The notes beneath the pieces were generated by a model. The model had not been told where the DNA came from. It made no database searches and saw nothing but the letters and a program-made list of their open reading frames with translations. DNA of 64,000 nucleotides from assembly GCF_000016165.1 (NCBI RefSeq), contig NC_009253.1:2080332-2144331 (forward strand), in the 5' to 3' direction. This DNA comes from Desulforamulus reducens MI-1. GTDB taxonomy: Bacteria; Bacillota; Desulfotomaculia; Desulfotomaculales; Desulfotomaculaceae. The translations under genes and the position numbers were made by a program. Below are positions 26,721-63,161 of this stretch, in pieces; position 1 is the stretch's first letter, and each line of letters begins with the position of its first letter.

Positions 26721-26755
26721 AATAATAAAACGACCCTCTGGGTCGTTTTATTATT
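26721..26755. terminator. rny terminator
   Basis: AATAATAAAACGACCC-TCT-GGGTCGTTTTATTATT is a perfect inverted repeat overlapping the rny stop codon. Confidence 0.92.
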
Positions 26756-28289
26756 TAGCATATTCAACATACCTGGTTTCCCGAATAATAATAACTTTAA
26801 TTTGACCGGGATAATCCAGTTCATTTTCAATCTTTTTAGCAATATCCCTTACTAGGCGAATAGCAGCCAGATCATCTATTTTATCTGGTTTAACCATAAT
26901 TCGGATTTCTCTTCCTGCCTGAATAGCAAAGGATTTTTCAACACCTTCAAAGGTGCCTGCAATTTCTTCCAATTTCTGCAATCGCTTAATATAGGATTCC
27001 AAAGTCTCTCTTCTAGCACCAGGGCGTGCGGCTGATATTGCATCAGCAGCTTGTACCAAGACAGCTTCTATGGTTCTTGGCTCTTCATCTCCGTGATGTG
27101 CTGCGATGGCATGAATAACTTCTGGACTTTCCTTATATTTTTGACAAAGGTTTACACCGATAGCTACGTGAGGTCCTTCCACCTCATGGTCAACAGCTTT
27201 CCCAATGTCGTGCAATAACCCAGCACGTTTCGCAAGTTTAACATCTATACCCAGTTCTGCTGCCATGAGTCCTGCTAGGTGACAGACCTCAATGGAATGT
27301 TTTAAGACATTCTGCCCATAACTGGTACGAAACTTCAGACGTCCAAGTAGTTTTACCAGCTCAGGGTGAAGGCCATGGACACCTGTTTCAAAGGTAGCCT
27401 GTTCACCTGCTTCACGTATCTGTACTTCTACATCTTTCTGAGCCTTCTCAACCATCTCTTCAATTCTGGCAGGGTGTATACGTCCATCGGAGATTAGCCT
27501 TTCAAGTGCCAATCTTGCCACTTCTCGACGAATGGGATCAAAACCTGAAAGGATAACTGCCTCAGGCGTATCATCAATAATTAAATCAATACCTGTTAGG
27601 GTTTCAAAGGCCCGAATATTACGACCTTCCCTACCGATTATACGACCCTTCATTTCGTCATTTGGCAATGGTATAACAGCAACAGTGGCCTCTGCAACAT
27701 GGTCTGCTGCACATCTTTGAATAGCTGACGAAATAATGTCCCGTGCCTTCTTATCCGCTTCTTCTTTAGCACGGTTTTCAAAGTCTTTAATCATCACAGC
27801 CATATCGTGTTGAAGCTCTTTCTCCACATCATTTAACAGTATCTGGCGAGCCTCTTCCGATGAAAGCCCCGATACTCGCTCCAACTCAGCTAACTGCCGA
27901 TTTAAAACATTAGTAAGCTCAGCCTTGGTATTTTCAATGTCAGCTTCTTTGCGACTTAAGGATTCCTCTTTCTTTTCCATGGAATCCATTTTCCTGTCTA
28001 GAGTCTCCTCTTTTTGCAGAAGCCTTCTTTCTAACCGTTGCAGTTCATTTCTACGGTCCCTTATTTCTCTTTCCATTTCGTTCCGTAGTTTTAGAACTTC
28101 TTCCTTTGCCATAACAATGGCTTCCCGTTTTTTGCCCTCAGCATTCTTCTCAGCCTCTTCAAGAATTCTCTTAGCCTGGGCTTCAGCCGATGTTATTTTA
28201 CCCTCGGCAATATTCTTTCGAATAAAAAAACCAATTACAAGTCCAACCAAAGCGGAAATAATAACCACTAAAATTATTTGAAACTCCAC
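26751..28289 (-). CDS. rny: Ribonuclease Y
   Basis: A membrane-anchored endoribonuclease of 512 aa that starts mRNA decay. It has an N-terminal TM (about 3-23, [18 protein letters not shown]), then a long coiled coil (about 30-195). The KH domain has [15 protein letters not shown], and the HD domain has LLHDIGKA with downstream [11 protein letters not shown]. The second GTG (28289) is used because the first overlaps the AGGAGGTG ribosome site. The usual Firmicutes neighbour ymdB lies downstream. Confidence 0.97.
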
Positions 28290-28339
28290 TGTTTTCACCT
28301 CCTGTCTTATGAATACTGCCCTTTTAAATCGAACATAAA

Positions 28340-28538
28340 ATAAAAAACCGAGTAATACTCGGTCGAAAATAAACAGATATCTGGTTTGTCCAAATCACGG
28401 GCAGGCTTACTATACCTCAAGATATTGGAACCCAACTAAAAAGCCAAAATCCCGACAAGAATAGTGGTTACGCTTTAAGGAATATTGGATTTTTTATATA
28501 TAAACTGTTGCCAGATATCAAATTCTATTTTCTCCCAA
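28340..28538 (-). ncRNA. Candidate ~195-nt structured RNA between recA and rny
   Basis: A consensus promoter (-35 TTGACA, 17 nt, -10 TAAAAT) faces this non-coding stretch, and an intrinsic terminator ends it. The ends pair through a perfect 9-bp stem (GATATCTGG from 28519-28511 with CCAGATATC from 28384-28376). Inside, CGGG and GGCTT pair with AAGCC and CCCG to form an apical arm containing the small hairpin TTGG-GTT-CCAA. The unpaired left side is long. This closing stem, bulge and apical arm layout resembles 6S RNA, but that identity is not shown. Confidence 0.6.
28341..28363 (-). terminator. Terminator of the recA-rny intergenic RNA
   Basis: On the minus strand ACCGAGTATTACTCGGT is followed by TTTTTTATTTT. 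It lies about 60 bp before the rny start. Confidence 0.85.
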
Positions 28539-28543
28539 ATGTA

Positions 28544-28572
28544 ATTTTACTAGTTTTTTGGGCCACTGTCAA
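28544..28572 (-). promoter_or_regulatory. Strong sigma-A promoter for the intergenic RNA
   Basis: TTGACA (28567-28572), 17 nt spacer, TAAAAT (28544-28549), starting about 45 bp after the recA stop. rny could also be read from here, but a terminator intervenes. Confidence 0.75.
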
Positions 28573-28618
28573 GATTCCGCCCCCCTGGCAACCCGTAGGC
28601 GGACTTAGTTGAATTCTA

Positions 28619-29662
28619 TTAAAATAGATCTTCCTCTGATTGATCTGTGGGTATCCCCTCTACGGAGGGGAGAGAATCGCTAAGGGATAACTTTTCTCGA
28701 ACCTTATTTTGAATCTCCTGACATAATTCTGGGCGTTCTTTAAACAACTCTTTTGCATTTTCGCGCCCCTGACCTAATCTTTCATCTCCGTAGGAATACC
28801 AAGCCCCGCTCTTATTTACAATTTTCAATTCGGTGGCAACATCTAGGATACTACCTTCCTTGGATATTCCTGTACCATACATAATATCAAATTCTGCCTG
28901 TTTAAACGGAGGTGCCACTTTATTCTTAACAATTTTCACCCGAGTGCGGCTACCTACAATATCTGTACCCTGCTTAATGTTTTCTTGTTTACGAACCTCC
29001 ATTCGAACAGAAGCATAAAACTTTAAGGCCCGACCGCCAGTGGTTACCTCTGGCGATCCATAAATTACGCCAACCTTTTCACGAATTTGGTTAATAAAGA
29101 CAACGATGGTTTTTGATTTACTTACTATACCAGTCAATTTCCTTAAAGCCTGAGACATTAACCTTGCTTGAAGCCCTACATGGGTATCTCCCATGTCCCC
29201 TTCAATTTCCGCCCGAGGAACTAAGGCCGCCACAGAGTCTACAACCACAACATCCACAGCGCCACTGCGCACCAACGCTTCGCATATCTCCAATGCCTGT
29301 TCACCTGTATCCGGTTGGGAAACCAGTAAGTTTTCCGTATCAACCCCCAAATTACGTGCATATACCGGATCCAAGGCATGTTCAGCATCAATAAAAGCTG
29401 CCATGCCGTTTTGTTTTTGGGCCTCTGCGATTACATGAAGGGCCACTGTGGTTTTACCAGATGACTCTGGGCCATAAATTTCTACTACACGGCCTCTGGG
29501 TAGTCCACCTACCCCCAGAGCGATATCCAATGATAACGCTCCACTAGATATAGCTTCTATATTTAATTTGGTTGAATCCCCTAATTTCATGATAGAGCCT
29601 TTACCAAATTGTTTTTCAATGTTTGCCAGAGCTATTTCAAGGGCTTTTATTTTATCGGACAT
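28619..29662 (-). CDS. recA: Recombinase RecA
   Basis: A 347-aa strand-exchange ATPase. Walker A is GPESSGKTT, Walker B lies in [19 protein letters not shown], loop L1/L2 contains [18 protein letters not shown], and [13 protein letters not shown] is present. It also drives LexA self-cleavage in the SOS response, and its own promoter carries a LexA box. recX, often downstream, is absent here: the 330-bp gap to rny holds a candidate RNA gene instead. Confidence 0.98.
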
Positions 29663-62930: not shown

Positions 62931-63161
62931 TTAGCAACTGTTATATTGATAAGTGCGGTTATCATCCTCTTCTTGGGCCAAAAAGGCATAGAGTGCGTCT
63001 TGAAATGCAGTAATTCTTACATTATCCATATTGGAACGAACATAGAGAGATTCTAACTCTCGCTTAAGAGATTGAAACTCTTCGCTTACACATATTAATG
63101 CAATATGATTAAGCCAGCGTTTTACCTCCTCATCAGGCGTATCAATCTTTGGATACCCCAC
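62931..63161 (-). CDS. Small helical protein upstream of the DUF4258-like gene
   Basis: A 76-aa protein from GTG 63161 (GGAG 9 nt upstream), GYPKIDTPDEEVKRWLNHIALICVSEEFQ... with mostly helices and a polar tail (EEDDNRTYQYNSC). No family is recognised. Gene order and size resemble a toxin-antitoxin pair with the next gene, but nothing else supports this. Confidence 0.6.
   Translation of the reverse strand: MGYPKIDTPDEEVKRWLNHIALICVSEEFQSLKRELESLYVRSNMDNVRITAFQDALYAFLAQEEDDNRTYQYNSC

Follow-up and report, generated by a model that had tools for sequence, protein, structure and literature searches.

A structured leader RNA upstream of rny in Desulforamulus reducens and its relatives, best explained as a transcription attenuator of RNase Y

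Results

The region between recA and rny in Desulforamulus reducens MI-1 contains a structured RNA that has no entry in Rfam 15 and did not appear in the literature searched. From its sequence and conservation, it is likely to represent a new RNA family, and the best explanation for it is control of RNase Y by transcription attenuation in cis.

Layout of the leader

Positions are given within the window, the 64,000-nucleotide stretch of DNA that was analysed, and the features of this locus lie on the minus strand. The recA ORF (28619 to 29662) is the neighbour upstream of the leader and lies outside the element, and the rny ORF (26751 to 28298), identified from its sequence and the gene order, is the proposed controlled gene. 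A first-pass annotation had read the gap as free of protein frames and lacking recX, and it was found that there is indeed no ORF of at least 60 aa in the gap and that recX is missing between recA and rny here. The promoter and intrinsic terminator that it had proposed were both confirmed, the promoter at positions 28572 to 28544 (TTGACA-17-TAAAAT, sigma-A type, 11 of 12 matches to the consensus) and the terminator at positions 28364 to 28346.

The leader RNA of about 195 nt (28340 to 28537), recognized by the covariance models R1 and R2 described below, begins with a near-invariant 5′ terminus, UGGGAGAAAAUAGAAUU (28521 to 28537), which is the 5′ strand of helix P1a and pairs with TGTTTATTTTC (28365 to 28375; 92% of cells paired). 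The perfect 9-bp closing stem of the first-pass annotation is present as helix P1b, formed by GATATCTGG (28511 to 28519) and CCAGATATC (28376 to 28384) and supported by covariation in 77 sequences, so that P1 in the window consists of AGAAAAU-GAAU/..UUUUCU plus the P1b strands. Between the P1b strands lies an interior domain (28385 to 28510) with an AU-rich UUUAUAUAUAAAA motif and variable arms, which is expandable or dispensable in relatives. The terminator, GACCGAGUAUUACUCGGUU (28346 to 28364), has eight pairs and a loop of 3 followed by U6; its core is ACCGAGU/ACUCGGU (28347 to 28363), its U-tract is TTTTTTAT (28340 to 28347), and the rny Shine-Dalgarno sequence is about 35 nt past the U-tract.

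The 198-nt RNA from 28537 to 28340 was predicted to fold at -51.4 kcal/mol, compared to a shuffle mean of -39.5 (z = -2.97), and 1 of 200 shuffles folded as well. The numbers of promoter-like sites (2 found, 1.7 expected from shuffled sequence) and terminator-like sites (1 found, 1.0 expected) in the gap were no higher than shuffles would give, and therefore the credibility of these signals rests on their conservation.

Distribution and linkage to rny

When 60 relatives were searched by DNA sequence, the element was recovered from the genus and, as pieces, from the order; all of the matches were upstream of rny, except for one short fragment, L029. Model R1 was built from the genus alignment with a hand-drawn P1 and terminator, and R2 is a broader model. 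With R1, one copy was found in 79 of the 113 genomes of the order, and a second copy only in one fragmented genome, whereas R2 found the element in 95 of the 113, nearly always as one copy per genome.

The 77 copies of the order that were inspected first all have rny directly downstream on the same strand. This linkage holds with or without recA nearby, as no recA was found in the upstream flank that was fetched for L063, L066, L069, L074, L076, L078, L080, and others. Many other loci of the order have about 750-975 bp between recA and rny, a length compatible with a further gene such as recX, and there too the RNA adjoins rny. As a separate observation on recA, that of an uncultured Desulfotomaculum (L133:307-3129) is split near codons 213-217 by about 2.8 kb encoding a 678-aa protein that resembles a group II intron reverse transcriptase/maturase with an HNH end, and the recA match in Desulforamulus aquiferis (L113) likewise starts at residue 213.

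A promoter of the form TTGAC(A/T)-17/18-TA(C/A/G)AAT was present in 100 of 102 copies (TTGACA in 99 of those 100), with a spacing of 17 in 89 and 18 in 11, and mostly 6 nt ahead of the leader. A named scan found the promoter together with the 5′ motif in 55 contigs; those classified belong to Desulforamulus, Pelotomaculum, Desulfoscipio, Desulfofundulus, Desulforudis, Desulfotruncus, Desulfallas, and relatives, and a few metagenome bins among the 55 bear other labels. A promoter and 5′-motif scan of viral contigs gave nothing, and a phage or mobile origin was rejected.

The distance from the end of the U-tract to the rny Shine-Dalgarno sequence has a median of 34 nt and is only 0-4 nt in L091, L098, and L173. 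A spacer this short usually leaves no space for a second promoter, so that rny would be reached by read-through. Two properties of a cis-acting leader were thus found: linkage to one gene, which was rny in all 77 copies and at L155-L169, and the succession of promoter, terminator, and gene without another promoter, the absence of which is deduced from the short spacer.

Covariation of the closing helix

RNAalifold run on the first MAFFT alignment gave the terminator alone because P1 was misaligned, and this was cured by the hand-drawn P1 in the covariance model. In an alignment of 77 sequences, which was fitted to the tested structure and is therefore biased towards it, 92.7% of cells were paired when P1, the terminator, and a 4-bp inner helix were taken together. 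Double-sided changes were seen in 262 cells, compared to 76 in shuffles, and the covariation score was 0.310 relative to 0.131 when shuffled and 0.02-0.07 in slid controls. Every P1b pair changes on both sides, with about 90% of cells paired, whereas the inner C-G, G-C, and G-C pairs of the terminator are invariant in 77 of the 77 sequences of the order.

The P1 strands were also swapped between species. Own strands gave -22.0 kcal/mol relative to -15.7 ± 0.4 for swapped strands within the order, and -20.6 relative to -12.3 ± 0.7 outside the order; in each case, 0 of 5000 permutations were as good, in tests that leave shared ancestry in. The compensatory base changes in relatives that the first-pass annotation had named as a check were therefore found, and P1 covaries strongly.

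The short 92-nt leaders of L155 and L156 keep the promoter, P1, and the terminator and have lost the interior. It was also observed that the interior loop takes insertions of about 100-200 nt with P1 and the terminator intact (L015/L174:1481-1855, L173:1369-1719, L171:1490-1895, and L017).

The conserved terminator stem in other classes

Matches to R2, mostly weak, were found in 17 genomes of other classes, and 15 of the 16 loci that were opened adjoin rny (L155-L169), the exception being L170. Further rny genes were taken by protein search, disregarding the RNA, and their upstream regions were then read; this sample of the phylum without Bacilli and Clostridia was not random but consisted of the 30 best-scoring rny genes and 40 picked across families. 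Among 71 readable upstream regions, strict scanning gave a terminator in 54, and a CCGAG..CUCGG-type pattern was present somewhere upstream in 52 (the match in L188 is doubtful). Outside the order, a promoter of the same kind and a CCGAG/CUCGG-type hairpin precede rny in 41 of 54 genes, the stem being nearly the same as within the order (consensus ACCGAG-UUUCUA-CUCGGU). The length of homologous leaders varies between 35 and 399 nt; in other classes the promoter and terminator are retained, and almost nothing is left of the interior.

A minority of the sampled rny genes are without the canonical stem, and several of these bear another terminator-like hairpin, such as the hairpin and U-run AACTGGTCTGACCAGTT in L227. 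Within the window's own order, L190-L192 share an alternative hairpin, ACCGUUGCUUAAGAGCACGGU, and that of L193 is nearly identical. Two further arrangements were noted: L186 (G032) has about 180 nt more after the leader terminator and then a second hairpin, AGTCGTTTAAAGCGACT, before rny, and L194 and L195 (G035 and G025) have a TTGACA promoter and leader with a different GC-rich hairpin, GGTTGGGGGACCGGCCCAACC, before rny.

In a pattern search of the 3.6-Mb D. reducens genome, the CCGAG/CUCGG stem with a U-run was found at one other site (G000:C1:3421919-3421942, L268), which reads CCGAGCCTTTTGGCTCGGGCTTTT. Terminator stem sequences usually drift freely, and the retention of this stem across classes therefore suggests that its sequence itself is in use, which is directly testable. 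Judged by sequence, the element is part of a phylum-wide arrangement of a promoter, a closing helix, and a sequence-conserved terminator.

Predicted pairing of the 5′ end with the terminator

For the stage before the 3′ arm of the terminator exists, folding predicted pairing between the CC of the 5′ arm and the transcript's 5′ terminus in 99 of 100 sequences, and when the terminator was forbidden, a contact with that terminus was predicted in 98 of 100. The GG:CC pair is invariant and therefore has no covariation support. Within the class of the window, the terminator state was predicted to be more stable by about 5 kcal/mol, and a longer pairing between the 5′ end and the terminator was no better there than in shuffles.

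In leaders from outside the order, GGGAGAAACU, which makes up the first ~10 nt, is complementary to AGUUUCUACUC of the hairpin. The predicted duplex had a mean energy of -9.0 compared to -6.2 for shuffles, and in 63% of cases this stretch ranked among the best 10% of leader windows. Own pairs of 5′ end and terminator gave -9.4, whereas swapped pairs gave -8.2 ± 0.3, with 0 of 5000 as good in a test that again leaves shared ancestry in, and compensated pairs were found in L231 (AAAGAAACU with AGUUUCUUU), L212 (CAGGAAAAU with GUUUUCUUG), and L236 (GUAGGAAC with GUUUCUAC). A possible alternative structure that would exclude the terminator is suggested by complementarity and co-variation in other classes; in the own class, only the invariant GG:CC extension of P1 would compete with it. 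The pairing in the sister classes can be seen as resembling an anti-terminator. A universal anti-terminator of this kind was rejected, as it was supported outside the order but not within it. The attenuator design appears well supported, and the exact switch of the window's own class is probably a different or a weaker one.

Alternative explanations

The first-pass annotation had likened the element to 6S RNA (RF00013), a comparison that fails. With about 190 nt and a long closing stem the leader is similar to 6S RNA, yet RF00013 did not match in 28200-28700 at E values up to 10, whereas two genuine 6S RNAs lie elsewhere in the same genome (94.5 and 82 bits; L001:1501-1690 and L002:1501-1685, or G000 C1 811548-811737 and 1397655-1397839). 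The Rfam covariance search that the annotation had called for gave no family reaching threshold in the recA-rny gap, the best of 4227 models in Rfam 15 being MicF with 28.7 bits relative to a gathering score of 79. Eight homologous loci of the order had no Rfam match at E < 1, RF00013 included, and 10 loci from other classes gave a single sub-threshold match, SorX (E = 0.38). The MicF, SorY, and SorX matches, which mostly share a terminator-like 3′ end, were rejected as sub-threshold chance; the sole Rfam match in the window is a tRNA gene (63037-63110, minus strand). The element is, moreover, always tied to rny, and we give practically no credence to a third 6S RNA or a 6S-like RNA polymerase-binding RNA.

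The annotation's wider claim of an unannotated RNA gene held in part: a structured RNA missing from the annotation is present and has its own promoter and terminator, and rather than being free-standing it is probably the 5′ leader of the rny mRNA, because it is always attached to rny, space for another promoter is usually missing, and the interior shrinks elsewhere. A trans-acting small RNA gene that stays beside rny by chance, with rny expressed by terminator leak, would fit the strong, nearly consensus promoter, the efficient-looking terminator, and the well-folded ends, and a terminated leader may act in trans as well. Such a gene is nevertheless unlikely given the perfect linkage to rny across many families, a variable interior (leaders of 35 to 399 nt, with the middle lost in L155/L156), and the finding of no copy away from rny but the weak, chance-like match L170. 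It is still less probable that the leader is a riboswitch in which a small molecule bound by the interior chooses between termination and read-through. The junction-like fold, the conserved AU-rich interior motif, and the terminator ahead of a gene are suggestive of one, but the interior is poorly conserved, expandable, and absent in the 92-nt and shorter forms, in which P1 and the terminator remain, no conserved ligand-binding core was found, and the linked gene encodes an RNase rather than a metabolic enzyme or transporter. Control of termination by ribosomes on a short leader ORF is very improbable: a TTG lies a few nt past the GGGAG motif in most copies, and a start codon was found in 64 of 95, but it is absent in the other 31, the peptides vary in length and sequence, and the reading was rejected as no conserved short ORF with a start and ribosome site was found in the 95 copies.

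Discussion

The evidence for the attenuator reading comprises the promoter, the terminator, P1, the linkage to rny, the missing space for another promoter, and the complementarity of the 5′ end and terminator in sister classes. Building on these, we infer termination in the cell, its regulation, and RNase Y as the signal, as follows. RNA polymerase would start at the strong promoter and make a leader closed by helix P1, meet the hairpin ACCGAG..CUCGGU and its U-run, and mostly terminate to give an RNA of about 195 nt, so that rny would be reached by read-through transcripts only. The 5′ terminus of the transcript would compete with the terminator, in sister classes by pairing of GGGAGAAACU with the terminator's AGUUUCUACUC, and in the own class by the terminal GG, which would extend P1 and capture the CC of the terminator 5′ arm. 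Most likely, RNase Y output would be set by RNase Y activity: with the 5′ end and P1 intact, some polymerases would read through, and with excess RNase Y, the AU-rich leader would be bound or cut, the 5′ end lost, and the terminator would win, so that rny synthesis drops.

The layout is the same as that of the terminator/antiterminator leaders of Firmicutes (T-box, riboswitches, and pyrR-type attenuators), which have a promoter, a structured leader, an intrinsic terminator before the gene, and an alternative pairing. In contrast to these, the rny leader has no known sensor domain, its terminator sequence is among its most conserved parts, and the pairing partner would be the transcript 5′ terminus. 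The E. coli rne 5′ UTR (Rfam rne5) is likewise a conserved structured leader before the gene of a main mRNA-decay endoribonuclease, although sequence and enzyme are unrelated; there, RNase E binds a stem-loop, and autoregulation acts by mRNA decay with no intrinsic terminator.

RNase Y initiates mRNA decay in many Firmicutes. In B. subtilis, it is reported to reduce its own synthesis by cleaving its own mRNA in the 5′ UTR and ORF; the 5′ UTR is 164 nt long, from a sigma-A promoter, and the cuts fall in the ORF up to about nt 100 and, on the 5′ UTR side, mostly in the first 50 nt (PMC10303841). This autoregulation acts by mRNA decay, and the text describes neither a terminator nor a conserved structured leader (PMC10303841). 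The gene, the long 5′ UTR from a sigma-A promoter, and the RNase Y cleavage near its 5′ end are parallels to the present system, whereas mRNA decay there differs from a terminator-bearing structured leader here. Cuts of the B. subtilis kind would decide between termination and read-through if the 5′ end competes with the terminator. We put forward, tentatively and as the less probable outcome, that across the phylum the very 5′ end of the nascent mRNA serves this attenuator as anti-terminator strand and that termination before rny would report removal of that end by RNase Y (with RNase J), which would make the leader a homeostatic sensor that gauges RNA-decay capacity through the integrity of the 5′ end.

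No report of rny attenuation was found in the literature searched, the structured-RNA discovery papers that were checked do not mention rny, RNase Y, or Desulfotomaculum, and the control of RNase Y level found there was that in B. subtilis only, as mRNA decay. The leader is very probably an as yet undescribed switch controlling a main mRNA-degrading enzyme and, if the reading is true, would define a new RNA family, with transcription attenuation as a second means of RNase homeostasis.
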